From positions 62,001-126,000 of the forward strand of contig JAUSOD010000106.1 in the NCBI GenBank assembly GCA_030656215.1: DNA of 64,000 bases. Direction: 5' to 3'. The notes under the pieces are model-generated. The model was given only the letters and a program-made list of their open reading frames with translations, searched no databases and was not told where the DNA came from. Of this stretch, positions 48,617 to 63,814 are shown piece by piece (the stretch's first letter is position 1; each line of letters starts with the position of its first letter). The stretch comes from Azoarcus sp. (GTDB taxonomy: Bacteria; Pseudomonadota; Gammaproteobacteria; Burkholderiales; Rhodocyclaceae). The position numbers and the translations under genes were made by a program.

Positions 48617-50347
<1,731 letters not shown>

Positions 50348-50371
50348 TCGGGTTTCCGCTCAATAGCCGAG

Positions 50372-50398
50372 AACCCCCGCACCGTGGTGCGGGGGTTT
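50372..50398 (+). terminator. hairpin after nirS
   Basis: AACCCCCGCAC, loop CGTG, GTGCGGGGGTT plus one T: an 11-pair GC-rich stem with a weak T tract, ending just before nirT. It may partly stop transcription or protect the nirS mRNA end so that NirS is made in excess. Confidence 0.6.
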
Positions 50399-50414
50399 GC
50401 CAAGGATGGATCCC

Positions 50415-51026
50415 ATGACAGATCGAGACAGCAAGTCAAAACAAGAACAATCCGGCGGGTTTCTCTCCCGCCTGCGCCGCCCGAGCGCCAAGTATTCGCT
50501 GGGTGGTTTGTTGCTGGTGGGTTTTGTGGTTGGCGTGTTCTTCTGGGGTGGATTCAACACCGCCATGGAAGCGACCAATACCGAGAGTTTCTGCATCTCG
50601 TGTCATGAGATGGAGAACAACGTCTATCAGGAATACAAGGAAACGATCCACTACACCAACCGTACCGGGGTGCGTGCAGTGTGTTCCGATTGCCATGTGC
50701 CCAAGGACTGGACGCACAAGATGATCCGCAAGGTTCAGGCCTCGCGGGAGGTGTGGGGCAAGATCACCGGCTCCATCGACACCCGTGAAAAGTTTGAAGA
50801 CAAGCGTCTGCAGCTGGCGCGCAACGAGTGGGCACGGATGAAGGCGTCCGACTCGCGCGAATGTCGCAACTGCCACAGCCTGGAAAGCATGAACTCGGAG
50901 CTGCAGAAGCAGCGCGCGCGCAAGCAGCATGAGATGGCGCGCGAGGACAACATGACCTGCATCGATTGCCACAAGGGCATTGCGCACCACAAGCCCGAAG
51001 GCATGACCGAGGAAGATGAAGAGTGA
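50415..51026 (+). CDS. nirT: NapC/NirT-family tetraheme cytochrome c
   Basis: A 203-residue membrane-anchored cytochrome. A basic N-terminus ([10 protein letters not shown]) precedes one membrane helix ([18 protein letters not shown]), then four CXXCH sites: CISCH, CSDCH, CRNCH and CIDCH. NirT/NapC proteins take electrons from quinol and pass them to periplasmic reductases. ATG 50415 is 8 bases after AAGGA. Position directly after nirS matches the Pseudomonas stutzeri nirSTB order. Confidence 0.93.
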
Positions 51027-51075
51027 GCGGTATGCAGCCGCCGTGGCTGGTTGGGTTCCACAAGGAGAATCAAAC

Positions 51076-51951
51076 ATGAACAAAACGATCATGAGCGCAG
51101 TGGCTGGCGCATTGCTGGTACTCGGAGCAGGGGGCGCCACCGCCGCCGCGCCGGCAGACTGGAGCAAGATTGCCGCCAAGGACATCACCCTGTTCCATCC
51201 CGGCGTCTCGCCGCTGGAGTGGATCACCAAGGGCACCGAACACGGTGGTGCGCGGGCGCTGAAGAAAGGTGAGACCTGTGCCGACTGCCACAGCGACGAA
51301 GCCGCTGCGATGGGTCAGAAGATGGCGAGCGGGCAGAAGATCGAACCCAGTCCGATCGCCGGCAAGGCGCCGTCCATCCCGGTCAAGGTCCAGGCTGCGC
51401 ACGACGGCGACACGCTGTATCTGCGCTTTACCTGGAAACAGCCCAAGTCGTCGGGCGCTGCCAAGATGGACGACAAGAACCCGGTCAAGATCGCATTCAT
51501 GCTCGAGTCCGGCGGCAAGGTCGAGCTCGCCGACCAGAGCGGATGCTGGGCGAGCTGCCACACCGACTCGCGCACCATGCCCGGCGCAGCCGACACCAAG
51601 ACGAAGTACGTCAAGGGCGGCTCGCTCGCCGAGGGTCGTTTCTACGATCTGGTGCAGTGGCGCAGCGGCGAGAAAAAGGGCTTCGACGGTCATGTGGCCG
51701 ACACGCGGGTGATGGAAGGAGGCAAGGCGCTGGTCAGCGCGGACGGAAAACTGGACGGCGACAGCTGGTCGGTGGTCTTTGCGCGCAAGTTCGCGGGCGG
51801 CGACGGTGACGTCAAGCTCGAAGCGGGCAAGGCTTACAACTTTGGCTTCGCAATCCACGACGACAACGCTGCCGGTCGCTTCCACCAGGTTTCGCTCGGC
51901 TACAAGCTCGGTATCGACGCCGCAGCCGATATCACCGCCGCGAAGCAGTAA
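51076..51951 (+). CDS. nirB: cytochrome c-552 type protein NirB (EB-dehydrogenase-related heme domain)
   Basis: A 291-residue periplasmic cytochrome: signal peptide (about 1-24, ending ATAAA), a standard heme site CADCH (about 74-78), and a second, odd site CWASCH with three residues between the cysteines (about 154-159). The C-terminal part resembles the ethylbenzene dehydrogenase gamma-like heme fold. P. stutzeri NirB holds the same position after nirT and is a diheme c-552. AAGGAG lies 8 bases before ATG 51076. Probably shuttles electrons around NirS. Confidence 0.85.
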   Translation: MNKTIMSAVAGALLVLGAGGATAAAPADWSKIAAKDITLFHPGVSPLEWITKGTEHGGARALKKGETCADCHSDEAAAMGQKMASGQKIEPSPIAGKAPSIPVKVQAAHDGDTLYLRFTWKQPKSSGAAKMDDKNPVKIAFMLESGGKVELADQSGCWASCHTDSRTMPGAADTKTKYVKGGSLAEGRFYDLVQWRSGEKKGFDGHVADTRVMEGGKALVSADGKLDGDSWSVVFARKFAGGDGDVKLEAGKAYNFGFAIHDDNAAGRFHQVSLGYKLGIDAAADITAAKQ

Positions 51952-51959
51952 GCAGTACG

Positions 51960-52003
51960 GGCATCGCCATTGCCTTGCGGGGCGATGGCGCTGCCTTTTT
52001 TTT
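51960..52003 (+). terminator. hairpin with T tract between nirB and the cupredoxin gene
   Basis: CATCGCC (51962-51968) pairs with GGCGATG (51981-51987), GGCA/TGCC may extend the stem with a bulge, and eight T follow at 51996-52003. Likely a full or partial terminator splitting nirSTB from the downstream genes. Confidence 0.55.
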
Positions 52004-52036
52004 CCGCTCCTGTCCGTTCCGCAATGGAGTCTCCCG

Positions 52037-52363
52037 ATGCGAATGTCCTCAGGCACGCTTCTCGTTTCCGGCCTGCTGGTGTCAGGGCTGCTGCTTTCCG
52101 CGTCGCCGTTCGCCCACGAGGTCGAAGTGTCGAACTATCAGTTCAAGCCTGCCGAACTGCACATCCGGGCAGGTGAAACGGTGACCTGGGTTAATCGAGA
52201 GAAGCGGGTCAGCCATTCCGTGATCTTTCTCGGAAGCGGCACCGAGTCCGAACGCTTCTTCCCGGACGAGCGCTGGTCGCGCAAGTTCGACGCGCCAGGG
52301 CGTTACCCCTACACCTGCGGCCCGCACCCCGAGATGCTCGGCGTCATCGTGGTCACCGACTGA
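52037..52363 (+). CDS. small periplasmic blue-copper protein (cupredoxin)
   Basis: A 108-residue protein: signal peptide (about 1-27, cleaved after SPFA), then a plastocyanin/amicyanin-like domain. The type 1 copper ligands are visible: His in RVSHSVIF, then Cys, His and Met in YTCGPHPEM near the end. It probably carries electrons to NirS, replacing or aiding the cytochrome c-551 (NirM) that occupies this slot in P. stutzeri. GGAG lies 7 bases before ATG 52037. Confidence 0.87.
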   Translation: MRMSSGTLLVSGLLVSGLLLSASPFAHEVEVSNYQFKPAELHIRAGETVTWVNREKRVSHSVIFLGSGTESERFFPDERWSRKFDAPGRYPYTCGPHPEMLGVIVVTD

Positions 52364-52379
52364 GCGCGGTCTGCGGGTA

Positions 52380-52393
52380 TTGATTCGAGTCAA
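52380..52393 (+). promoter_or_regulatory. FNR/DNR-type operator upstream of nirC
   Basis: TTGAT-TCGA-GTCAA matches the Crp-Fnr dyad in 9 of 10 defined positions. It starts 17 bases after the cupredoxin stop, and its centre is 68 bases before the nirC ATG, suggesting a separate anaerobic promoter for nirC-nirF-nirDL-nirG-nirH. The -10 expected near 52416 is poor. Confidence 0.7.
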
Positions 52394-52454
52394 GGTACCC
52401 AGCGGTCAGGTAGGGAATCCTGCTGATCAGTCGAATCACCGTGTGGATGAACCC

Positions 52455-52859
52455 ATGAAAGTGCCTCCCTTGCTCGCCCATGTGTTGGTGCTGGTTGTCG
52501 CAGCAACTGCAGCGGCCTTCGCTTCCGCCGCCGACCTCACTAATAGTTCCAACAAGGATTCCACTGCGGTGCCTGACGGCCAGCGTGCTCGCGAACTCGT
52601 GCATCTGGTTCGCCAGGACTGCGGTTCCTGTCATGGCCTCACGCTGGCCGGCGGTCTCGGCCCCGCGCTTACGCCCGACGCGCTGGCCGACAAGCCGGCC
52701 GAAGGCCTGGTGGCGACCGTGGTGGGAGGGCGCCCCGGTACCCCGATGCCACCCTTTCGCGGCATCGTCAGCGAGCGCGAGGCGGAGTGGATCGTGGAGC
52801 AATTGATGCGCGGGTTCCCCGCGGACGGCGGACCGGCACTTGCCGGTGGCGCCAACTGA
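52455..52859 (+). CDS. nirC: monoheme cytochrome c NirC
   Basis: A 134-residue periplasmic cytochrome c: signal peptide (about 1-26, hydrophobic LAHVLVLVVAATAAAFASA), heme site CGSCH near residues 56-60, axial Met probably in GTPMPPFRG. NirC of other cd1 operons can donate electrons to NirS and may act in NirS maturation. It lies directly before nirF with 19 bases between. Confidence 0.87.
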   Translation: MKVPPLLAHVLVLVVAATAAAFASAADLTNSSNKDSTAVPDGQRARELVHLVRQDCGSCHGLTLAGGLGPALTPDALADKPAEGLVATVVGGRPGTPMPPFRGIVSEREAEWIVEQLMRGFPADGGPALAGGAN

Positions 52860-52878
52860 AGCACGCTGGAGCCACAAC

Positions 52879-54093
52879 ATGTCCGATCAGAAAGTACGCC
52901 TTGCCCCGCCGCTGGTGTGGGGCATCCTGTTGCCGGTCATTATCCTGCTTCTGTCGGCCTGTGCCACGCAGCCGCCGGTGGCGGCGCTACGCGGCACCGG
53001 CGATCTGGGTGTGGTCATCGAGCGCGCCGATGGCCGGGTGCAGATCGTCGAAACCAGCGGGCGCAGCGTGCTGGCCAAGGTGGAAGGCCTGGGCGATCTG
53101 TCGCATGCCTCGGTGGTGTTCTCGCGTGATGGACGCTACGCCTTTGTGTTTGGCCGCGACGGTGGTCTGAGCAAGGTCGATCTGCTGACCGCCACCATCG
53201 TTGGGCGGGTCATGCAGGCCGGCAATGCGATCGGTGGCGCCATCTCCCAGGACGGGCGCATGGTGGTTGCACAGAATTACGCACCGGGTGGAATCAAGGC
53301 TTTCGATGCCGACACCCTCGAACTCCTGGCCGATGTCGCCGCCGAATACGGTACGGAAGGCAAGCGTTCCAAGGTGGTCGGGTTGGCCGATCTGCCCGGC
53401 AACCGCTTCGCCTACGCCCTGTTCGACGCAGACGAGATCCGGGTGACCGATCTGTCCGATCCCAAACATCCGGTCACGCAACGCTTCCCCGCCGGTCGTC
53501 AGCCCTACGACGCGCTGGTGACGCCCGATGGCCGCCACTACATTGCCGGCCTGTTCGGTGAGGACGGCTTGGCGATGCTCGATCTGTGGCAGCCGGAGCA
53601 GGGCGTGCGCAAAATCCTCGCCGGCTATGGCAAGGGCGCCGAGCCGCTGCCGGTGTTCAAGATGCCACACCTGCGCGGCTGGGCGGTGGCGGGTGGTCGT
53701 GCCTATCTGCCGGCGATCGGTCGCCACGAGGTGCTGGTGGTGGACACCCGCACCTGGCAGGAAGTCGCGCGCATTCCGGTCAAGAGTCAGCCGGTGTTCG
53801 TCATGGCACGGCCTGACGGACGCGAGGTGTGGGTGAACTTCGCTTTTCCTGAAAATGGCTGGGTGCAGGTGATCGATACGCTGACGCAGAAGGTGGTCGA
53901 TACGCTGCAGCCAGGACGTGCCATCCTGCACATGGAGTTTGCGCCCAAGGGCGAGATGGTGTGGCTCTCGGCCCGCGATGACAACCGCGTCGTGGTGTAT
54001 GACACCGCCACGCGCAAGCCGGTGGCAGGGTTCGACTCGGCAAGCCCGAGCGGCATTTTCTTCACCAGTCGTGCCGCGCGCACCGGGTTCTGA
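52879..54093 (+). CDS. nirF: heme d1 biosynthesis lipoprotein NirF
   Basis: A 404-residue beta-propeller protein related to the d1 domain of NirS. A lipobox LLSAC puts the lipid Cys at residue 28, so it is anchored in the periplasm. Propeller repeats and conserved stretches such as GQVMQAGNAIGGAISQDGR-like and FKMPHLRGWAV are seen. NirF is reported to dehydrogenate dihydro-heme d1 in the last synthesis step and to contact NirS and NirN. ATG 52879 is preferred over an earlier in-frame start inside nirC. Confidence 0.93.
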   Translation: MSDQKVRLAPPLVWGILLPVIILLLSACATQPPVAALRGTGDLGVVIERADGRVQIVETSGRSVLAKVEGLGDLSHASVVFSRDGRYAFVFGRDGGLSKVDLLTATIVGRVMQAGNAIGGAISQDGRMVVAQNYAPGGIKAFDADTLELLADVAAEYGTEGKRSKVVGLADLPGNRFAYALFDADEIRVTDLSDPKHPVTQRFPAGRQPYDALVTPDGRHYIAGLFGEDGLAMLDLWQPEQGVRKILAGYGKGAEPLPVFKMPHLRGWAVAGGRAYLPAIGRHEVLVVDTRTWQEVARIPVKSQPVFVMARPDGREVWVNFAFPENGWVQVIDTLTQKVVDTLQPGRAILHMEFAPKGEMVWLSARDDNRVVVYDTATRKPVAGFDSASPSGIFFTSRAARTGF

Positions 54094-54096
54094 CCC

Positions 54097-55134
54097 ATGC
54101 CACGAGTTGCCTGTATGCCGCACATCACCGGAACTGCCGACTTTCGCCTGCTCAATGACTGGCAGCGTGATTTTCCGCTGCTGCCGCGCCCGTTTGCGCA
54201 CATCGGCGAGGTGGTCGGTGCCACCGAGCAGGCCGTCATCGATGCCTATCGCGGCTGGGTCGCCGCCGGGGTGGTCAGCCGGGTCGGCGCAGTTTTCGCC
54301 CCGCGCCGGATCGGCGTCGGTGCGCTGGTGGCCCTGGCCGTGGCGCCCGAGCGTCTCGAGGCGGTGGCCGCCCGCGTGAGTGCCGAGCCCTGCGTCAACC
54401 ACAACTATGAACGCGAACATGCGTTCAACCTGTGGTTCGTCGTCACCGCCCCGGATGCCGATGCGCTGACCCGCATCGTCGGCGGCATCGAGCGCGACAC
54501 CGCATGCAAGGCCATCTGCCTGCCGATGGAAGAGGAGTTTCACATCGACCTCGGCTTTGACCTCACCGGGCTCGCGCGCAAGTGCCGTGTCGATGTCAGT
54601 ACCCGCCATGCTGCTGCGACTGAACCGGCCTGTGCCCTTCCGGATCTCGATCGCCGGCTGTTCACCGCCTTGCAGGGTGGGCTGCCGATCGTCCCTGCGC
54701 CGTGGGATGTGCTCGGCCGGCGGGTCGGGCTGAGCGAAGGCATGGTGCTCGAGACAGTCGAGCGCGGGCTGGCCGAAGGCCTCATCCGCCGTTTCGGCGT
54801 GGTGGTCCGTCATCATGAACTCGGTATCGGCACCAATGCGATGTGCGTATGGGATATTCCCGATCCGCTTGCCAGCGAAGTCGGCCGGCGCCTGGCGCTG
54901 GAGCCGGCGGTCACCCTGTGCTATCGACGAAAACGTGGGGCGCCGGACTGGCACTACAACCTGTTCTGCATGATTCACGGCAGCGCGCGTGACGCGGTGC
55001 TGGCGGTTCGCGACGAGCTTGCACAACGCCTGAGGCTGGATCAGTGGCCGCACACCGTGCTGTTCAGCGGTCGGCGCTTCAAGCAGGGCGGGGCGCACTA
55101 CCTGCCCATGGCGCCGGAGACGGGCAATGACTGA
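54097..55134 (+). CDS. nirDL: siroheme decarboxylase, NirD-NirL fusion
   Basis: A 345-residue protein made of two Lrp/AsnC-like halves (about 1-170 and 180-340), each with a helix-turn-helix-like part and an RAM-like part. The first half has NHNYEREHAFNLWFVV, the second TLCYRRKRGAPDWHYNLFCMIHG; these hold the His residues used by siroheme decarboxylases. With NirG and NirH it removes carboxyl groups from siroheme to give didecarboxysiroheme on the heme d1 route. In many species nirD and nirL are separate. Overlaps nirG by 8 bases. Confidence 0.93.
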   Translation: MPRVACMPHITGTADFRLLNDWQRDFPLLPRPFAHIGEVVGATEQAVIDAYRGWVAAGVVSRVGAVFAPRRIGVGALVALAVAPERLEAVAARVSAEPCVNHNYEREHAFNLWFVVTAPDADALTRIVGGIERDTACKAICLPMEEEFHIDLGFDLTGLARKCRVDVSTRHAAATEPACALPDLDRRLFTALQGGLPIVPAPWDVLGRRVGLSEGMVLETVERGLAEGLIRRFGVVVRHHELGIGTNAMCVWDIPDPLASEVGRRLALEPAVTLCYRRKRGAPDWHYNLFCMIHGSARDAVLAVRDELAQRLRLDQWPHTVLFSGRRFKQGGAHYLPMAPETGND

Positions 55135-55621
55135 TGACGCCAGGTCCACCCGCCGGGGCGTGGCGGCAACACGGGCGCCGGATGAACTCGACCGCCGCCT
55201 GATCAACGCCCTGCAGGGCGACTTTCCGCTGGTCGAGCAGCCCTATGCCGCCGTTGGCGCGGCGCTTGGACTGAGCGAGGACGAGGTCATTGCCCGCCTG
55301 CAGAGCCTGCTTGATGCCCGCGTGCTCACCCGTTTCGGTCCGATGTTTCAGGTCGAGCGCATGGGCGGTGCATTCTGCCTGGCGGCGATGGCGGTGCCGG
55401 ATGCGGACTGGGCACGGGTGGTGGACGCGGTGAATGCCTTTCCGGAGGTCGCGCACAATTACCGTCGCGAGCATGCCTTCAACATGTGGTTCGTGCTCGC
55501 GACCGGCAGCCCCGCGGGCATCGCCGAGGTTGCGGACCGGATCGAGTCGGTGACTGGCCTGACGGTGCACCGCTTTCCTAAAGAACGTGAGTACTTCGTC
55601 GAGATGAAGCTGGAGGCCTGA
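55127..55621 (+). CDS. nirG: siroheme decarboxylase subunit NirG
   Basis: A 164-residue Lrp/AsnC-like protein with ELDRRLINALQGDFPLVEQPYAAVG and AHNYRREHAFNMWFVLA, matching the D/G type half of the family. It acts with nirDL and nirH products in heme d1 synthesis. It starts inside the nirDL end and its stop shares a base with the nirH start (TGATG). Confidence 0.92.
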   Translation: MTDDARSTRRGVAATRAPDELDRRLINALQGDFPLVEQPYAAVGAALGLSEDEVIARLQSLLDARVLTRFGPMFQVERMGGAFCLAAMAVPDADWARVVDAVNAFPEVAHNYRREHAFNMWFVLATGSPAGIAEVADRIESVTGLTVHRFPKEREYFVEMKLEA

Positions 55622-56160
55622 TGAGGGACTTACTTTCCGAATCCGCCGCGCACGGCGAGAACGAACTGGATCGGCGTCTGGTGCTGGCCACGCAGGACGG
55701 GCTGCCCCTGGTGGCGCGTCCCTACGCGGCCCTGGCCGAGCGTCTCGGCTGCACCGAGGCCCAGGTGCGCGATCGTCTGGCGGCCATGCTGGCGCGTGGT
55801 GCGATCCGCCGCATCGGGGCGGTGCCCAACCACTACGCAATCGGTTACACCGCCAACGGCATGAGCGTGTGGGACATTGACGATACCCGAATCGATGCCG
55901 TAGGCGAACTGGTGGGCGCGCTGGATTTCGTCACCCACTGCTATCGCCGTCCGCGCCAGCTGCCGGACTGGCCCTACAGCCTCTTCGCCATGGTGCATGC
56001 AGGCAGTCGCGAGGCGGCGCTGGCGCGGGTGGAGGATATCTCAGTGCTGGTGGAAGCCCGCTTTCCCGGCGCCTGTCGGGCGCACGATGTACTTTTTTCC
56101 ACCGCCATCCTCAAGAAAACGGGGCTCCGTCTGATCCGAGGCGTGCAGGTGCCGGCTTGA
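55621..56160 (+). CDS. nirH: siroheme decarboxylase subunit NirH
   Basis: A 179-residue Lrp/AsnC-like protein of the L/H type with ELDRRLVLATQDGLPLVARPYAALAE and THCYRRPRQLPDWPYSLFAMVH. It completes the decarboxylase set. Its last 50 bases overlap, tail to tail, with the end of the minus-strand hipA gene. The next heme d1 gene, nirJ, is 7.7 kb away. Confidence 0.92.
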   Translation: MRDLLSESAAHGENELDRRLVLATQDGLPLVARPYAALAERLGCTEAQVRDRLAAMLARGAIRRIGAVPNHYAIGYTANGMSVWDIDDTRIDAVGELVGALDFVTHCYRRPRQLPDWPYSLFAMVHAGSREAALARVEDISVLVEARFPGACRAHDVLFSTAILKKTGLRLIRGVQVPA

Positions 56161-57514
56161 TATTGGCCTGAATATCTGCGGCGCGATGAAGCTGGCTCGC
56201 AGCATTCTGGAGCCCATTTGTGACGGATTCGAAGACTTCCATTGGGAAACCTGCCGGGAGGCGGTTTCCGACCGCTTCGATCACTGCTGGCGTCCGATCC
56301 ACAAGCCTGTCGATCTCCTTGTTCATGCCGTTGGCAAATCCGCAGACCTTTGCAGTCTCGACAAAATGTCGACGCTGGATACTCACCAGTCGACGATGAC
56401 GGTTCTTTCCATGCAGGCTCATTGCCATGCTGGCCTTCTTGTGGTCCAGATGGTTTGGGCCTCGACCGATTATCGGCCACGCCGATAAAACATCGTACAG
56501 AGGAGTCAGGCGGTATTTTCCTTCCGGTTGCAGAAAAATGCTGAAGTTCTTTGCGTGCCCATCCGTCGCAGCGAGCATCCAATAGGCCAACTGGGACGAC
56601 ATGAACGTCGCGATGTCACCCATCGCGTTGTCAGAAGTCGCGAGCAAACGAGCAATCGATGCAATACCGGGACCGCCGTCTGCCTCGTATTTTCTGGAGC
56701 TCGGATACCCGAGCGCCTGACAGAAATCTTCTTGCGGCAAACGCAGCCAATAATCCCCGGAGCTTGCCATTTTCCGATCGAAGCGCTCCACAATCAGCGC
56801 TTTTTGCTGGCCGAAGCGTCCGATTTCACACCGGGCAACTGGAAACCCGAACTCGCGAACAATCTCGGAGCAAAGCCATTCGTTTTCCACCGAGGTATGC
56901 ATGTCCGCCTTCATGTGCCCAACGAGCCCGAGGGGCAATTTGAAGATATGCGTCGTTGGGGTCGCGCCAAGGGGTCGGCACCAATGTCCGTCATGCCAAA
57001 GGAACGCGGTTTTTTCTTGTGCCCCGGCGATGGAAATACGAAAGTTATCCTCATCTGCGAGGTGACTAAAAGCGGCACTTCCGGGAGTGACGGCCGACAC
57101 CAGCCAATTCTCGACTTCCGCGTCCGTGAGCCGCTGTGCCTCGATGGCAAAGACCTTTTCCGGTGTCTTGCCATCAGGCAATAACTGCACCGCCCCCACG
57201 CAATCCCGTCCAATAGCTTCCAGAAGATCGAAGGCCTCCTGGCTATCAGTATGGAAACGCTGCTGAAGGCGGCTGCGGATCGATTGGCTATCAGGGAGCA
57301 GGTTGTCGAAGAAGAACCCAACTTCCTTGCCCTTCAACGGCTGCCCATCGAGCGGGATCGGCAGCGAAAGAGATATTGGACGGGCTTGCGGCGATGACAC
57401 CCACGATTCATCGTACCGAAACTCCATTGATCCGCGCGCCGGGATGGTCCATATCCCGACAAATTGCCCATTCATCCAGACCTTGAGCATCCTGCTGTGA
57501 GAGCGGCGTCCCAT
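56111..57514 (-). CDS. hipA: HipA-family serine/threonine kinase toxin
   Basis: A 467-residue HipA protein: N-terminal domain, then SIAGAQEKTAFL (nucleotide loop), the basic VERFDRK, the catalytic TDGHAKNFSIF near residue 316 and LTPLYDVLSAWP with the metal-binding Asp. E. coli HipA phosphorylates GltX and induces persistence; targets differ in relatives. ATG 57514 is 4 bases after the hipB stop; GTG 57529 is an overlapping alternative. The DNA looks less GC-rich than the nir genes, suggesting acquisition. All kinase residues appear intact. Confidence 0.9.
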   Translation of the reverse strand: MGRRSHSRMLKVWMNGQFVGIWTIPARGSMEFRYDESWVSSPQARPISLSLPIPLDGQPLKGKEVGFFFDNLLPDSQSIRSRLQQRFHTDSQEAFDLLEAIGRDCVGAVQLLPDGKTPEKVFAIEAQRLTDAEVENWLVSAVTPGSAAFSHLADEDNFRISIAGAQEKTAFLWHDGHWCRPLGATPTTHIFKLPLGLVGHMKADMHTSVENEWLCSEIVREFGFPVARCEIGRFGQQKALIVERFDRKMASSGDYWLRLPQEDFCQALGYPSSRKYEADGGPGIASIARLLATSDNAMGDIATFMSSQLAYWMLAATDGHAKNFSIFLQPEGKYRLTPLYDVLSAWPIIGRGPNHLDHKKASMAMSLHGKNRHRRLVSIQRRHFVETAKVCGFANGMNKEIDRLVDRTPAVIEAVGNRLPAGFPMEVFESVTNGLQNAASQLHRAADIQANIKPAPARLGSDGAPFS

Positions 57515-57518
57515 GGCT

Positions 57519-57764
57519 CTACCATTCACTCTTCGGTGCCGAACTGCTGTCCTTCTCGCGCAGCACGAGCTCCAGATTGAGCATGTTGGCGAGGACCAGC
57601 AAACGGTCTAGTGTCATCCGGTCGGGATGGAGTTCGAGTTCAGAAAAACGCGGCTGACTGATTCCAAGACGTTGAGCGGCCGTGGCCTGCGAAAGCTTGA
57701 GCGCTTTGCGCCGAGAAGTGAGCGCCTGCCCGACTTGGAGCGGGGTCGTAAGAAGACGTAGCAT
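57519..57764 (-). CDS. hipB: HipB-family antitoxin, XRE-type DNA-binding protein
   Basis: An 81-residue protein with one helix-turn-helix (LSQATAAQRLGISQPRFSELE, about 24-44). It is encoded just before hipA, as in hipBA modules, and would bind HipA and repress the operon. The ATG at 57764 is followed upstream by AT-rich DNA with no other gene. Confidence 0.9.
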   Translation of the reverse strand: MLRLLTTPLQVGQALTSRRKALKLSQATAAQRLGISQPRFSELELHPDRMTLDRLLVLANMLNLELVLREKDSSSAPKSEW

Positions 57765-57880: not shown

Positions 57881-58003
57881 GTGACGCCGATCCGGCAGCT
57901 CCGCCGGCTGGCTCGGTGGCGTCTTGCCGGGCGTGAGCGCATACTCGGCAACTTGCCGCCAAGCCTGCCCACCGGCCGCGCGGGTTCAAGACATGAGCGA
58001 CAC

Positions 58004-59506
58004 ATGAACAAGATCATCGACGTGACCGAGTTGTGTCTACGCGACGCGCACCAGAGCCTGCTTGCGACGCGAATGGCGCTGGAAGACATGGTGCCGGCCT
58101 GCGCCGACCTTGACGAGGCCGGCTATTGGTCGGTTGAATGCTGGGGCGGCGCGACCTTTGACGCCTGCATCCGCTTCCTGAACGAGGATCCGTGGGCGAG
58201 GTTGCGTACCTTTCGCCAGTTGCTGCCGAAGTCGCGTCTGCAGATGCTGCTGCGTGGCCAGAACCTGCTCGGTTATCGCCATTATGAGGATGGCGTCGTC
58301 GACCGCTTCGTGGACCGGGCGGCAGACAATGGCATGGACGTGTTCCGCATCTTCGACGCGCTCAACGACATCCGCAATATCCGCCACTCGGTCAATGCGG
58401 TGCGCCGCAATGGCAAGCATGCCCAGGGCACGATCTGCTACACGGTCAGCCCGCTGCATACCACCGAGAACTTCATTGAAATGGCGGAACGGCTGGTCGA
58501 GCTGGGCTGCGATTCGATCTGCCTCAAGGACATGGCCGCGTTGCTCAAGCCACAGCCCGCCTACGACATCGTCAGCGGCATCAAGGCGCGTTGTGGTGAG
58601 GGTGTCCGTGTTCACGTGCATACCCACGCCACCACCGGCGTCACCCTGGTTTCGCTGATGAAGGCGATCGAGGCCGGGGCCGACTGTGTGGACACCGCGA
58701 TCAGCTCGCTCAGCCTCGGCCCGGGTCACAACCCGACCGAGAGCCTGGTCGAAATGCTCGAAGGCACCGGCTACGAAGCGCGGCTGAACAAGGCCTGCCT
58801 GCGTCGGGTCAAGAATCACTTCGCGACCATCCGGCCGCGCTACCAGGCTTTCATGTCCAATATTCATGGTGTCGACACCGATATCTTCGACAGCCAGATT
58901 CCGGGCGGCATGATTTCCAACATGGAGAGCCAGCTCAAGCAGCAGGACGCCGAAGACCGGCTCGAGGAGGTGCTGATCGAAGTGCCCCGCGTCCGCGAGG
59001 ATGCCGGTTTTCCGCCGCTGGTCACACCTTCGAGCCAGATCGTGGGTACGCAGGCGGTGTTCAATGTGCTGATGGGGCGCTACAAGGTGGTCTCCAGCGA
59101 GTTTGCCGACCTGATGCTGGGCTATTACGGCAAGGCCCCGGGTGAGCGTGACCCGACGGTGCTGGCGCTGGCCGCCCAGCAAGCGCACAAGGAAGCCATC
59201 GAGCAGCGCCCCGCAGACTTGCTGCAACCGGAATGGGAGGTGCTGCGGGCCGCAGCCACGGCCTTGCCCGGCTGCGACGGTAGCGAAGAGGACGTGCTGA
59301 CCTATGCGATGTTTCCGCCGGTGGCCCCCGGCTTTTTTGCCAGCCGCGAACTGGGGCCGAAATACCTCGGCGTTGATCCGAAGGCAGCCGTAGCAAAACC
59401 CGGTGCATCTGGTGCCGAGCCCTCACCCTTGCGCGCACCGGTCACTTACGACGTCAAGTTGAACGGGCGCTCGCACCGGGTTTCGGTTACTCCGATCAGC
59501 GAATGA
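58004..59506 (+). CDS. methylmalonyl-CoA:pyruvate transcarboxylase 5S subunit (pyruvate/oxaloacetate carboxyltransferase)
   Basis: A 500-residue carboxyltransferase of the HMGL-like TIM-barrel family. Active-site features: LCLRDAHQSLLATRM (about 10-24), the carbamylated-Lys region ICLKDMAALLKP and the metal ligands HVHTHATTG. It has no attached biotin domain, being the size of the propionibacterial 5S subunit (about 505), and stretches such as GYWSVECWGGATFDACIRFL and PGGMISNMESQL closely resemble that protein as I recall it. It would exchange carboxyl between biotin and pyruvate. Oxaloacetate decarboxylase alpha is the alternative, but no membrane beta subunit is nearby. ATG 58004 is the family start. 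Confidence 0.85.
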   Translation: MNKIIDVTELCLRDAHQSLLATRMALEDMVPACADLDEAGYWSVECWGGATFDACIRFLNEDPWARLRTFRQLLPKSRLQMLLRGQNLLGYRHYEDGVVDRFVDRAADNGMDVFRIFDALNDIRNIRHSVNAVRRNGKHAQGTICYTVSPLHTTENFIEMAERLVELGCDSICLKDMAALLKPQPAYDIVSGIKARCGEGVRVHVHTHATTGVTLVSLMKAIEAGADCVDTAISSLSLGPGHNPTESLVEMLEGTGYEARLNKACLRRVKNHFATIRPRYQAFMSNIHGVDTDIFDSQIPGGMISNMESQLKQQDAEDRLEEVLIEVPRVREDAGFPPLVTPSSQIVGTQAVFNVLMGRYKVVSSEFADLMLGYYGKAPGERDPTVLALAAQQAHKEAIEQRPADLLQPEWEVLRAAATALPGCDGSEEDVLTYAMFPPVAPGFFASRELGPKYLGVDPKAAVAKPGASGAEPSPLRAPVTYDVKLNGRSHRVSVTPISE

Positions 59507-59518
59507 ACAGGTAACGCC

Positions 59519-61066
59519 ATGAGTACGATGCAGAAGAAGATTGCCGAACTTCGTCGCCGACGCGAAGAAAACCAACTCGGTGGCGGCGCCGACAAACAGG
59601 AGAAGCACCGACAGTCCGGGCGTCTGACCGCGCGCGAACGGGTCGCGGCTCTGGTGGACCCGGACAGCTTCGAGGAGATAGGCCTGTTCGCCACCCATCG
59701 CGCCACCCTGTTCGGCATGCAGGACAAGACCTTCGCTGCCGATGGTGTCATCACCGGCGCGGCGTCGGTCGGTGGGCGCTTGGTGCACCTTGCGAGCCAG
59801 GACTTCACGGTGGCCGGCGGTTCGGCTGGTGAGACGCACTCGATCAAGGTCGCCGATATCATGCAGGCCTCGCTCAAGACCGGCTCGCCCTTCGTTTTCA
59901 TCAACGATTCGGGTGGCGCGCGGGTGCAGGAAGGCATCGCCGCGCTGTCGGGTTACGGCAAGGTGTTTCACGCCAATGTGCTGCTCTCCGGTGCGGTTCC
60001 GCAGATTTCGCTGATCTGCGGTCCGTGCGCCGGCGGCGCGGCCTACAGCCCGGCGCTGACCGATTTCATCATCCAGACCCGGCAGGCGCAGATGTTCATC
60101 ACCGGGCCGCAGGTCATCAAGCAGGTGACCGGCGAAACCGTCACCGCCGAAGCACTTGGCGGGCCGGATGCACACATGGTGCACTCGGGCGTGATTCACT
60201 TCATCGCCGACGACGACCAGCATGCAATCGCGCTGTGTCGCAAGCTGATCAGCTTCCTGCCGGCGAACAATCTGGAGGACCCGCCCATCATCGACGGCGA
60301 TCGCTCGGTCGAGCCGAATCCGGCGCTGGAAACGGTGTTGCCGGAAGAAAGCAAGCAGGGTTACGACGTCCGTGCGGTGATCGGGTCCATCGTCGATTTC
60401 GGCGATTTTCTCGAGGTGCAGGCTGGTCATGCGATGAACATCGTGGTCGGCTTTGCGCGTATCTGCGGCGGGTCGGTCGGCGTCGTCGCCAATCAGCCTT
60501 CGGTCAAGGCCGGCGTGCTCGATATCAATGCCTCGACCAAGGCAGCGCGCTTCATCCGCTTCTGCAACGCCTTCAACATCCCGCTGGTGACCTTTGTCGA
60601 TGTACCGGGCTTCATGCCGGGGGTCGAGCAGGAGTATGGCGGCATCATTCGCCATGGTGCCAAGCTGCTGTTCGCGTATTCGTCGGCAACGGTGCCCAAG
60701 ATCACCATCATCCTGCGCAAGAGCTATGGCGGCGCCTACCTCGCCATGTGCGGCAAGGATCTCGACGCCGACCGGGTGTTCGCCTGGCCGACGGCCGAAG
60801 TCGCGGTCATGGGGGCCGAGGGCGCTGCCGAGATCGTCTTTCGCAAGGAAATTGCCGAGGCCGACAATCCCGATCTGCGACGCGCAGAACTGATCGCCAG
60901 CTATCGCGACACCTTCTCGAACCCTTACGTCGCGGCCGAACAGCGGCTGGTCGACGCCGTCATCGAGCCTGCCCTGACCCGGCGCCATATTGCCCAGGCG
61001 CTCGAGTACCTGCGCATCAAACGCGTTCCCCGGCCACACAAGAAGCACGGCCTGATGCCGCTGTGA
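59519..61066 (+). CDS. methylmalonyl-CoA/propionyl-CoA carboxyltransferase (transcarboxylase 12S type)
   Basis: A 515-residue acyl-CoA carboxyltransferase with two crotonase-like halves. Oxyanion glycines are in ICGPCAGGAAYSPALTDF (about 160-177) and RKSYGGAYLAMCGKD (about 400-414); RLTARERVAALVDPDSFEE opens the protein. The size agrees with 12S of transcarboxylase, MmdA and PccB, which move CO2 between methylmalonyl-CoA and biotin. It starts 12 bases after the 5S-type gene and ends one base before the next gene. Confidence 0.88.
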   Translation: MSTMQKKIAELRRRREENQLGGGADKQEKHRQSGRLTARERVAALVDPDSFEEIGLFATHRATLFGMQDKTFAADGVITGAASVGGRLVHLASQDFTVAGGSAGETHSIKVADIMQASLKTGSPFVFINDSGGARVQEGIAALSGYGKVFHANVLLSGAVPQISLICGPCAGGAAYSPALTDFIIQTRQAQMFITGPQVIKQVTGETVTAEALGGPDAHMVHSGVIHFIADDDQHAIALCRKLISFLPANNLEDPPIIDGDRSVEPNPALETVLPEESKQGYDVRAVIGSIVDFGDFLEVQAGHAMNIVVGFARICGGSVGVVANQPSVKAGVLDINASTKAARFIRFCNAFNIPLVTFVDVPGFMPGVEQEYGGIIRHGAKLLFAYSSATVPKITIILRKSYGGAYLAMCGKDLDADRVFAWPTAEVAVMGAEGAAEIVFRKEIAEADNPDLRRAELIASYRDTFSNPYVAAEQRLVDAVIEPALTRRHIAQALEYLRIKRVPRPHKKHGLMPL

Positions 61067-61067
61067 G

Positions 61068-61361
61068 ATGGCCGACATGAACAAGCACACCGAAGACGAA
61101 TTGTTGTCCCTGATCGCGCAGATGCGGCAGGAGATCGGCACCCTCAGCCGTCGGGTCAACGAGCTCGAGCAACGCATGGGCGAGGGCGCGGCTGCCGCCG
61201 CACACGCGGCGCCCAGCGAGGAAACCTTGCTCGCGATCTCGGCCGCCGTTGCCGCCTACCTTGGCGTGAGCGCCCGTATCCGCCACGTGCGCCTGGTCCA
61301 CTCCAGCGCCTGGGCGCAGGTTGGGCGCATGGGCGTCCACGCTGCGCACCGACTTCATTGA
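61068..61361 (+). CDS. small protein resembling the soluble tail of OadG/MmdD
   Basis: A 97-residue protein without membrane helix. Residues 1-38 are a probable coiled coil (LIAQMRQEIGTLSRRVNELEQRM), followed by an alanine-rich linker, then EETLLAISAAVAAYLGVSARIRHVRLV and SSAWAQVGRMGV. The last part resembles the C-terminal cytoplasmic tail of decarboxylase gamma/delta subunits, which help bind the carboxyltransferase. I infer an assembly role for the transcarboxylase. ATG 61077 is an alternative start. Confidence 0.7.
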   Translation: MADMNKHTEDELLSLIAQMRQEIGTLSRRVNELEQRMGEGAAAAAHAAPSEETLLAISAAVAAYLGVSARIRHVRLVHSSAWAQVGRMGVHAAHRLH

Positions 61362-61373
61362 CTGGAAGCAACT

Positions 61374-61778
61374 GTGAAACTACGAATCACCATAGACGAC
61401 AAGACCTATGAGGTGGATGTCGAAGTGGCCGAAACCGACCACGCGAGCCTGCCTCCCGCCTATCCGATCGGCTCGGCCAGGCTGGCCGGCAGCGCTGCCA
61501 GCTCAGCAGCCCACCCAGCCGTCGGCACTGCAGCCGGTAGCCCACCGGTGCCGCCCGCCAACGAAAGCAAGGTTTGCCGCAGCCCGGTGTCCGGTGTCGT
61601 GGTCAAGGTTTTGGCTGTTGCCGGCAACAGCATTGAGGCGGGCGATTCGCTACTGCTGCTCGAAGCGATGAAGATGGAAACCAACATCACCGCTCCGCTT
61701 GCTGGGGTGATCGCCGCGGTTAACTTCAAGGCCGGCGACCATGTTCAAACCGGCGATGTGCTGGTCGAGTTCAAGTGA
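61374..61778 (+). CDS. biotin carboxyl carrier protein (transcarboxylase 1.3S type)
   Basis: A 134-residue biotinyl protein starting at GTG 61374 (GGAAG upstream). N-terminal MKLRITIDDKTYEVDVEVAE resembles the propionibacterial 1.3S start, an Ala/Pro linker follows, then the lipoyl-like domain with the biotin site EAMKMET (Lys at residue 100). It swings carboxybiotin between the 12S and 5S type subunits. Confidence 0.88.
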   Translation: MKLRITIDDKTYEVDVEVAETDHASLPPAYPIGSARLAGSAASSAAHPAVGTAAGSPPVPPANESKVCRSPVSGVVVKVLAVAGNSIEAGDSLLLLEAMKMETNITAPLAGVIAAVNFKAGDHVQTGDVLVEFK

Positions 61779-61871: not shown

Positions 61872-62228
61872 TCAGGATTTCTGGCCGCTGAGCAGGGTTT
61901 TCCAGCCTGCGGCGGCATAGACCAAAATCGCCGTGCCAATCAAACCCAGGCCAAATACCAGCGCAATCAGGAACCAGTCGGCAGGGCCGCCGGCGTCGGT
62001 GAAGCCCGAGGATGAAACCTTGGCCATCAGGACCAGTGCCAGCACACCGCCTGCCAGCCCTACCAGTTCGGCGCGCACCAGTCGCTTGGCGACGATGCCC
62101 TTTTCCTTGATCAGCAGGATCAGGAAAGCCGCCGTGCCGCCGATGACGAGCACGAGCAGGATCCATAACAGGGGGCCCAGCATTTCCTGGAAAACGGCGA
62201 AAAAAATCAGTGGGTCGAGGTCTTTCAC
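61872..62228 (-). CDS. small membrane protein, DUF5368-like, partner of the flavoprotein
   Basis: A 118-residue protein with three hydrophobic helices (about 8-35, 50-65 and 80-105). It starts at GTG 62228 with AAAGGAG just before it, 11 bases after the sulfide dehydrogenase-like gene, so they form an operon. It resembles DUF5368 proteins as I recall them; function unknown. It might anchor or connect the exported flavoprotein to the membrane. Confidence 0.7.
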   Translation of the reverse strand: MKDLDPLIFFAVFQEMLGPLLWILLVLVIGGTAAFLILLIKEKGIVAKRLVRAELVGLAGGVLALVLMAKVSSSGFTDAGGPADWFLIALVFGLGLIGTAILVYAAAGWKTLLSGQKS

Positions 62229-62239
62229 GGTAACTCCTT

Positions 62240-63595
62240 TCAGGCGCGGCCGCGCAACATGCTGATATAAGTGGGCTTGAGGGCCATAGTCTTCATGACC
62301 CAGCTGATCCAGAGTTCTTCGAGCGGTGCGATGAGGCCAGGGAAGGAGGGGGTCAGGTTGTTTTCGTAGTCGAACTCCACCAGCATGGCCTGGCCCAGGC
62401 GGGTAATCAGCGGGCAGGAGGTGTAGCCGTTGTAGATCGAGTCGGACGTCTTGCCCGCGATGTCGGCCACCAAGTGATCCACGGCCACCGGTACCTGCCA
62501 CTTGACGCTGGCGGCAGTCTTGCCCTTGGGTACCCCGGCGATATCTCCGACGCCAAACACGTTGGGGAAGCGGGCGTGGCGCAGCGTGCCCTTGTTGACC
62601 TCCAGCCAGCCTTCTGCGACCCAGCCGCCGGTCTTCCAGGGCAGGGGGCTGTTCATGACCGAATCGGGTGCGGCCATGGGTGGGATAATGTTGATGAAAT
62701 CGTACGGAAGCTCGGTTGTTCCCTCGGGGGTGCTGAAGGTCGCGATACGCTTGCCCAGGTCGATGGATTTGAGCACCCGGTCCATCTGGGTCTTGATGCC
62801 CCTGTCTTTAAACAGCATGCGTACCTTCTCGGAGACGATGGGTACGCTGAAGAAGGCTTTGTTGTGAGCGTTGTAGATGATCTCTGCCTTGCCTCGGTTG
62901 CCGCGGCGGCGCAGATGATCGTCCGTGATGAAGGTGTATTTGAGCGGGGCACCGGCGCACTTCATTTCGGTGGCCGGGCGCAGAAAGACGCCCACTCCGC
63001 CCTTGTCGGCGAAGGCAGACAAGGCCTGCCAGGTGGCGGATGCACCGGCAGGGCTGTGGTAGATACTGCCCAGGCCATTCTTGCCGATCTGCTCCACGTC
63101 CATGCCGTCGATGGCGGCGTAGTCCAGTTTCATGCCGGTGGCCACGATCAGGTAGTCATAGGCGAAAGCCTTGCCGCTTTCGGTGACGACCTTGTTCCCT
63201 TCCGGGTCGAATTCGGCTATCCGTTCGGTGACCAGTTCCACGCCGGCGGGTACGTATTCGGCGGTGCTGGAAACCGTGTACTCCTGGGGTTTGATGCCGG
63301 CTGCGACGAGCGTGAAACCGGGTTGGTAGAAGTGCTCCTTGCGGGCGTCGATCAGCGTGATCTTCGCGCCGTCCAGCTGTTGCGCCAGATGGGATGCGGC
63401 CGACAGGCCGGCAGCGCCCGCGCCGGCAATGACGATTCTTGCCGTGGTCTTGATCTTGTCTGCTGCCCGGGCCGACCCGGGGTGCAGCAGCAAACTGCCC
63501 GCCCCGGCGGTTCCGAGGGCCAGAAAGGCGCGCCGGTCCAGCTTGACTGTTTCCAGTGTCTTGAGGGCGTCACTCAATTCGGGTGCTCTGGTCAT
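62240..63595 (-). CDS. Tat-exported sulfide:quinone oxidoreductase-like flavoprotein
   Basis: A 451-residue FAD protein. A twin-arginine motif LDRRAFLALG (Arg at 21-22) and hydrophobic GTAGAGSLLLHPG give an exported form. Then the FAD loop IVIAGAGAAGLSAAS, the redox Cys in EMKCAGAPLKYTF, a second Cys in YTSCPLITRLGQ and the GVGDIAGVPKGKT FAD motif. These fit sulfide:quinone oxidoreductase or flavocytochrome c sulfide dehydrogenase flavin subunit. No cytochrome subunit is next to it, so SQR is favoured. ATG 63595 follows AGGAGA. Confidence 0.85.
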   Translation of the reverse strand: MTRAPELSDALKTLETVKLDRRAFLALGTAGAGSLLLHPGSARAADKIKTTARIVIAGAGAAGLSAASHLAQQLDGAKITLIDARKEHFYQPGFTLVAAGIKPQEYTVSSTAEYVPAGVELVTERIAEFDPEGNKVVTESGKAFAYDYLIVATGMKLDYAAIDGMDVEQIGKNGLGSIYHSPAGASATWQALSAFADKGGVGVFLRPATEMKCAGAPLKYTFITDDHLRRRGNRGKAEIIYNAHNKAFFSVPIVSEKVRMLFKDRGIKTQMDRVLKSIDLGKRIATFSTPEGTTELPYDFINIIPPMAAPDSVMNSPLPWKTGGWVAEGWLEVNKGTLRHARFPNVFGVGDIAGVPKGKTAASVKWQVPVAVDHLVADIAGKTSDSIYNGYTSCPLITRLGQAMLVEFDYENNLTPSFPGLIAPLEELWISWVMKTMALKPTYISMLRGRA

Positions 63596-63814
63596 GATGG
63601 CTTCTCCTGTGCGGCAGCCGGGCAACCGCGCGCTAAAAAAGTTATTGTTAAAATTATAAGCAAATAATCGCATTCTTATATTAATAAATGTCAAGCTTAG
63701 GCCCGGTTCGGCCCTGGTCGGCATTGACCTTGCGCTAGCACCCCTGATCACGATTGCGCGAATGTTGTACCGATGCATGCGGACAAGCCGCGGCTGACTA
63801 CCTGCCTGTCCCGA
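63596..63814 (-). promoter_or_regulatory. AT-rich region upstream of the sulfide oxidoreductase gene
   Basis: AT-rich DNA at 63635-63695 lies between the minus-strand flavoprotein gene and nirJ and includes the palindrome TATTAATA (63679-63686). It probably holds the promoter and an operator for the flavoprotein gene. No gene is seen in the 287-base gap. Confidence 0.35.

Follow-up and report, generated by a model that had tools for sequence, protein, structure and literature searches.

Four adjacent genes at positions 58004-61778 (+ strand) of a 64,000-nucleotide stretch of DNA from Azoarcus sp. (assembly GCA_030656215.1, contig JAUSOD010000106.1, positions 62,001 to 126,000; the whole stretch is referred to below as the window) are, judging from sequence comparison, very probably the genes of a soluble biotin-dependent methylmalonyl-CoA:pyruvate carboxytransferase (EC 2.1.3.1), or transcarboxylase. 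The enzyme type is known and widespread, and four-gene operons were already described in Geobacter and Propionibacterium in 2010. A preliminary description of the window had reported separate genes for 5S-, 12S- and 1.3S-type subunits in one operon; all three are present and tightly packed, but the operon contains a fourth gene, an open reading frame (ORF) of 97 amino acids at 61068-61361, which that description had overlooked. By profile comparison, the product of this gene is homologous to the C-terminal domain of MmdD, which serves as the scaffold in a Na+ pump; in the place of the MmdD membrane helix, the fourth protein has a predicted coiled coil. This likely identity is the part of the analysis that most deserves the attention of specialists: it bears on the assembly of the classical enzyme and offers a testable identity for an unexplained ORF of transcarboxylase operons.

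Subunits of the predicted transcarboxylase

The 5S subunit (pyruvate/oxaloacetate carboxyltransferase, 500 amino acids, 58004-59506) was named from a curated model and its best solved match, the 12S subunit (methylmalonyl-CoA carboxyltransferase, 515 amino acids, 59519-61066) from its Carboxyl_trans domain and its best solved match, and the 1.3S subunit (biotin carboxyl carrier, 134 amino acids, GTG start, 61374-61778) from its Biotin_lipoyl domain and its position. The fourth gene, whose product combines an N-terminal predicted coiled coil with an MmdD-like C-terminal domain, is present in all the loci that could be judged. The ORF coordinates leave gaps of 12, 1 and 12 bases between the genes in the order 5S, 12S, fourth gene and 1.3S. 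Alignments with most relatives of the 5S protein begin at its first residue when the ATG at 58004 is taken as the start, and the upstream GTG at 57881 is therefore probably not its start.

For comparison with other genomes, 429 stretches of a named species collection were found to encode a 5S relative, and the best 80 of these, together with seven from whole-genome searches, made up a set of 87 loci that leans to close relatives. Seventeen loci were not judged because the contig ended early (six without 1.3S, eight with the 12S gene cut, and three without 12S), and the 70 judged loci include the window (L038) and Zoogloea ramigera twice (L037, L065). The trees, built by the quick search of IQ-TREE, contain the window, the Propionibacterium chain and 35 of the other 69 complete loci.

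The 5S protein scored 918.9 bits against NF008984, the curated transcarboxylase-5S equivalog model, and passed its cut-off of 827 (the query began one codon ahead of the ATG); the OadA and pyruvate-carboxylase equivalog models of NCBIfam fell below their own cut-offs, and the domain-level model PRK09282 was passed too. Its best solved match was the transcarboxylase 5S structure 1rqb with 725.2 bits, in comparison to 513.9 for the next kind of protein, and in the 5S tree 37 transcarboxylase rows were split from seven OadA/PycB-type rows with a support of 95. The metal site of the 5S subunit, which we take to be D23, K184, H215 and H217 in the numbering of P. shermanii, aligns with D14, K175, H206 and H208 of the window protein, and each of these residues is kept in 37 of 37 transcarboxylase rows; D14, K175 and H208 are also present in seven of seven and H206 in five of seven OadA/PycB-type rows, so that the metal-site residues do not single out a transcarboxylase. 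The C-terminal ends, compared by eye, showed that the window 5S stops about where fused OadA-type proteins would start their biotin domain. The window genome (G000; 5.08 Mb in 113 contigs) gave no other strong 5S match; the three further matches are weak and partial (E 4.6e-6 or worse, 21-26% identity), so that neither an OadA nor a carboxyltransferase of the pyruvate carboxylase type is counted as found in it.

The 12S protein carries the carboxyl transferase domain (608.7 bits), and its best solved match was the transcarboxylase 12S structure 1on3 (711.7 bits, with 638.0 for the next), with which it aligns over nearly the whole length without the sequence of the fourth protein. No 12S equivalog was among its NCBIfam matches, and TIGR01117 (mmdA) stayed under its cut-off. 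In the 12S tree, where the weak 12S paralogue L009 was included as an outgroup and counted in no group, the 37 transcarboxylase rows stood apart from MmdA and PccB with weak basal support, with the crystallised 12S of P. freudenreichii well inside them. At the D position of the motif GGAYDVM, a residue which we take to be a mark of propionyl-CoA carboxylase, the window 12S has L, the same as the P. freudenreichii 12S and MmdA, and the PccB of the window genome has D. A reading of the operon as a propionyl-CoA carboxylase was rejected, since PccA and PccB are encoded elsewhere beside a mutase, the operon has no biotin carboxylase, and the 12S motif differs.

The 1.3S protein contains a Biotin_lipoyl domain (61.3 bits), and none of the NCBIfam models was above its cut-off; since no specific family model passes, the name of this subunit rests on its position and its biotin site (EAMKM). 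The carrier is free-standing with an MKM site, as expected for EC 2.1.3.1, and the MKM motif is present in the 1.3S proteins of all 70 judged loci. The transcarboxylase 1.3S structure 1dcz was one of its 43 solved matches and not the best. The search against characterised subunits that the preliminary description had proposed thus led to Propionibacterium structures as the best matches of 5S and 12S, and the models, the nearest solved structures, the active-site residues and the trees place these two subunits with the characterised Propionibacterium enzyme, in agreement with the propionibacterial type that had been putatively assigned.

Genome context and direction of the reaction

The operon encodes neither a biotin carboxylase nor a membrane subunit, as EC 2.1.3.1 would lead one to expect, and to this extent the preliminary description was right on both points. 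For the genome as a whole its statements do not hold: biotin carboxylases occur elsewhere (one of them, PccA, beside PccB), and the search for oadB/mmdB that it had suggested found one OAD_beta gene on another contig. This gene is, however, part of an operon of its own, mmdA-mmdD-mmdC-mmdB (L030:6539-10191, contig C39; names by similarity and order), which by similarity encodes a Na+-translocating methylmalonyl-CoA decarboxylase. A membrane beta subunit working with the window proteins, set beforehand as grounds for abandoning the transcarboxylase, was not encountered: the beta subunit of this genome is encoded together with alpha, delta and biotin-carrier genes of its own, and the window operon lacks the membrane beta subunit that a Na+-translocating decarboxylase would have. 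In two further genomes of the genus (G067, G115), the MmdA is about 90% identical to that of the window genome, and no transcarboxylase 5S was found.

On a third contig, methylmalonyl-CoA mutase, a GTPase (presumably MeaB-like), PccB and PccA are grouped, and two more partial mutase matches lie at contig ends. The genome thus shows three enzymes for the propionyl-CoA/methylmalonyl-CoA pair, namely an ATP-dependent carboxylase, a Na+-pumping decarboxylase and the transcarboxylase. In the last of these, the biotin of 1.3S would exchange the carboxyl group with (S)-methylmalonyl-CoA on the 12S subunit and with pyruvate/oxaloacetate on the 5S subunit; the net reaction, methylmalonyl-CoA + pyruvate <-> propionyl-CoA + oxaloacetate, would involve no ATP, free CO2 or Na+ transport.

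The direction that we consider more likely in a respiring host is from oxaloacetate and propionyl-CoA to pyruvate and methylmalonyl-CoA during the use of propionate or odd-chain acids, which would spare the ATP of propionyl-CoA carboxylase; this reaction, with one ATP saved, is what the excerpted text of PMC2996986 proposes for propionate use by Geobacter bemidjiensis. The host had been called a denitrifier, which is likely by gene content, as the region immediately upstream of the operon encodes a nitrite reductase-type cytochrome-d1 protein and contains heme-d1-type genes. A serious, if less probable, alternative is that the same complex mainly runs in the fermentative direction, from methylmalonyl-CoA and pyruvate to propionyl-CoA and oxaloacetate, as a source of oxaloacetate or of propionyl-CoA for storage polymers. 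Propionibacterium uses this direction according to excerpts of PMC2909200, it is the one assigned to Pelobacter propionicus in excerpts of PMC2669807, and it would fit with the finding of no pyruvate carboxylase-type carboxyltransferase in the window genome, but oxaloacetate can come from the two phosphoenolpyruvate carboxylases which this genome encodes, the host has a nitrite-reduction locus, and no sign of propionate formation was seen next to the operon.

Several observations weigh against assigning the four genes to a transcarboxylase of propionate use. The transcarboxylase is not the sole route, as the Na+ methylmalonyl-CoA decarboxylase and the propionyl-CoA carboxylase are also encoded; the best candidate for methylmalonyl-CoA epimerase, on the same contig as the mutase and PccAB, is under the curated cut-off (44.1 in comparison to 114.95 bits); and no homologue of the mutase or of propionyl-CoA carboxylase was found in the 19-kb stretch around the operon (L038). 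In addition, the basal branch of the transcarboxylase 12S rows is weak (support 62), MmdA is a close relative of the window 12S with 57% identity, five of 38 genomes with the 5S gene, including that of the window, have OAD_beta, and none of the four other sampled genomes of the same genus carries the 5S gene, so that this gene is dispensable.

The fourth gene and its relation to MmdD

A small ORF of 80-160 amino acids lies between the 12S and 1.3S genes in 70 of 70 judged loci, in each case as a separate ORF with its own start, and the order 5S-12S-small ORF-1.3S is kept throughout; the ORF was accepted at a tblastn E of up to 1, that of L100 having been missed at 1e-3. One of these loci, from a genome close to Propionibacterium, has a 5S that is 77% identical to the 5S of P. 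freudenreichii, and its 12S pairs with the crystallised 12S in the tree. Among 57 aligned fourth proteins (that of the window and 56 of the other 69), G66, W82, G86 and R87 are invariant.

A profile built from all 70 fourth proteins was searched against 681 ORFs. It matched the MmdD of the window genome (E 2.8e-9) as well as three MmdD proteins from related genomes, each at E 9.7e-6 or better; a more distant MmdD (L134) reached only E 0.078, with the best unrelated ORF at 0.37, and the OAD_gamma proteins of L127, L128, L131 and L135 were not matched at E up to 10. At the level of sequence profiles, homology is clear for the MmdD branch and is not shown for OadG at large. The alignment of the fourth proteins and that of MmdD, compared by hhalign, gave a probability of 96.2 and E 2.5e-9 over 53 columns, a result that is not independent of the first, as the MmdD rows (five of ten OAD_gamma matches) had been picked as best-matching after the profile search. 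PF04277 (OAD_gamma) was the Pfam family matched by most of the 57 proteins (27 at E up to 1, best 5.6e-4), followed by SlyX (16) and the coiled-coil family DUF7310 (15). The window protein itself scored 13.7 bits against PF04277, under the gathering cut-off of 27, and its best Pfam match was SlyX (E 0.018), ahead of OAD_gamma (E 0.1).

In the solved-structure search with the alignment of fourth proteins, coiled-coil chains were the best-scoring among the matches listed, covering the N-terminal half; the same search gave no significant match with the window protein alone (best E 0.046) or with the MmdD alignment. The predicted structure has three helices at modest confidence (pLDDT 73.7, pTM 0.37), and Foldseek returned no match to it at E up to 0.001. 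The best 19-residue hydropathy of the window protein, 1.64, falls in the C-terminal part (residues 53-71), and the protein has no N-terminal membrane helix of the kind expected in the gamma or delta subunit of a Na+-translocating decarboxylase; the MmdD of the same genome reaches 2.53 from residue 13. The hydropathy reaches 1.6 somewhere in 19 of the 70 fourth proteins, and in the ten with the highest values the stretch is in the C-terminal part in seven and N-terminal and membrane-helix-like in three (2.4-3.0; L080:10223-10702, L089:10176-10652 and L092:10164-10613). No OAD_beta match was found in the genomes of L080 and L089.

By analogy with the pumps, we propose that the fourth protein serves as an assembly subunit, whose MmdD-like helix would bind 5S and/or 12S and whose coiled coil would replace the membrane anchor. 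According to the excerpted text of PMC7274780, OAD gamma requires its C-terminal tail to hold the alpha subunit, and its amphipathic helix is the proposed binder of the alpha association domain; the excerpted text of PMC11575231 cites the delta subunit as one without which the Veillonella complex does not form. We lean towards the view that the textbook three-subunit transcarboxylase really has four subunits, the small one being a soluble relative of the delta/gamma scaffold with a coiled coil for a membrane anchor, and that some subunits from Acidobacteria still (or again) have a membrane helix, which would tether the transcarboxylase in genomes without OAD_beta. If true, the soluble transcarboxylase and the membrane pumps would share one assembly principle. 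Among the papers listed in searches of open-licence literature, none was seen to link the fourth transcarboxylase gene to MmdD or OadG, which is not proof of absence.

It is very unlikely that the window proteins instead form the soluble portion of a Na+-translocating decarboxylase and dock on the MmdB of the mmd operon. Such docking would agree with the presence of one OAD_beta gene in the window genome and of such genes in four others of the 38 transcarboxylase genomes (L099, L101 with two copies, L115 and L116), with the homology of the fourth protein to MmdD, the scaffold between the soluble and the membrane parts of the pump, and with the N-terminal membrane-helix-like stretch in three of its 70 relatives; on the other hand, mmdB shares its operon with mmdA, mmdD and mmdC genes of its own, the fourth protein of the window lacks the N-terminal membrane helix, and 33 of the 38 genomes, including those of two of the three helix-bearing loci, showed no OAD_beta match, a count in which some absences may be gaps, as many are metagenome-assembled genomes (MAGs) and completeness is given for two. 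The membrane pump was rejected as the main explanation on account of the separate operon of the OAD_beta gene and of the 33 genomes that show none. Equally improbable is that the fourth ORF is a detached C-terminal piece of 12S, as excerpts of PMC2909200 describe PFREUD_18850 (C-terminal part of the 12S entry Q8GBW6), since it is a separate ORF in every judged locus, its product is homologous to the separate MmdD subunit, and the window 12S aligns with 1on3 over nearly all of its own length without it.

Distribution, surroundings and known systems

The best 80 of the 429 stretches are titled as betaproteobacteria (Azonexus, Dechloromonas, Rhodoferax, Thauera, Zoogloea and others), Acidobacteria, Planctomycetes, Actinobacteria, Telmatospirillum and a few others, and the transcarboxylase is thereby documented in betaproteobacterial records under these five names. 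In the family survey, three of 199 genomes had a 5S at 78-100% identity (that of the window, G193 and G036), and seven further matches at 44-52% identity were of another type, the four that were examined (L023, L024, L026, L029) having fused biotin domains. A 5S relative was found in six of 394 sampled genomes of the class to which the genome of L118 belongs (an actinobacterial MAG by title), that genome included. Directly after the 1.3S gene and on the same strand, a match to methylmalonyl-CoA mutase was found in 23 of 83 loci, 20 of them titled Acidobacteria. A scan of viral contigs with the 12S protein found no relative.

The betaproteobacterial rows formed one group in both trees (98-100), including one record titled Holophagaceae (L051). 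Seven proteins flanking the operon in the window were searched in the 87 loci (E up to 1e-10; the loci from the species collection have at most about 7 kb of flank, several of them less) and were found only in the window's own stretch, apart from one flavoprotein of L098 (27% identity). The grouping of the betaproteobacterial rows, together with the lack of any match in their loci to the proteins that flank the operon in the window, suggests that the four genes form a self-contained cassette of patchy distribution. The transcarboxylase genes of two MAGs disagree with their titles, which could reflect a binning error or a transfer: those of L051 group with Comamonadaceae in the trees, and those of L097 (titled Arcobacter) are Bryobacteraceae-like by gene order and fourth protein.

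Upstream of the operon, the genes at 48665-56160 encode a nitrite reductase-type protein that combines cytochrome c and cytochrome D1 domains and matched no NCBIfam model at 1e-8, another protein with a D1 domain, a cytochrome of the NapC/NirT type and three proteins of the siroheme-decarboxylase type, one of which is a fusion of AhbA-like and AhbB-like halves, and within this cluster (51016-51951) is a 311-amino acid protein with an ethylbenzene-dehydrogenase-type (EB_dh) domain. A HipA-like protein and an upstream small ORF resembling a HipB-type regulator by eye (56111-57764, - strand) are located between the nitrite reductase cluster and the transcarboxylase genes, in a dip of G+C content to about 56%. 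On the other side, at 61872-63778, a DUF5368 protein and a sulfide:quinone-reductase-like flavoprotein (under the curated cut-off) are convergent with the operon; as listed, the two ORFs overlap, and one start or both may have been placed too far upstream. Promoter and terminator scans found sites about as many as, or fewer than, in shuffles.

Among known systems, the transcarboxylase of P. freudenreichii, with four coding sequences in an operon (PFREUD_18870-18840) according to excerpts of PMC2909200, resembles that of the window in its separate 5S, 12S and 1.3S genes and provides the best solved matches for 5S and 12S. PFREUD_18850 is numbered between 12S and 1.3S, the place of the fourth gene, to which it is likened by its position; the two systems differ in that this ORF is described in those excerpts as the C-terminal part of 12S, and in that the window host is a nitrite-reducing betaproteobacterium. 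Similarly, Gbem_0334-0337 of G. bemidjiensis form one predicted operon for a 5S-like, a 12S-like, a conserved hypothetical and a biotin protein in excerpts of PMC2996986, where the hypothetical protein is considered possibly involved; by its position it would correspond to the fourth gene. For Pelobacter propionicus, a laterally acquired transcarboxylase is predicted in excerpts of PMC2669807. OadA is homologous to the window 5S, but the four OadA/PycB-type proteins examined carry fused biotin domains whereas the window 5S is separate. OadG (PF04277) is the family most often matched by the fourth proteins, yet the window protein is under its cut-off. The Na+ pump MmdA-D-C-B of the same genome shares with the window system a biotin carrier, a 57% identical 12S/MmdA subunit and an MmdD C-terminal domain homologous to the fourth protein, and differs from it in having the membrane pump MmdB in place of 5S and an MmdD with a membrane helix.

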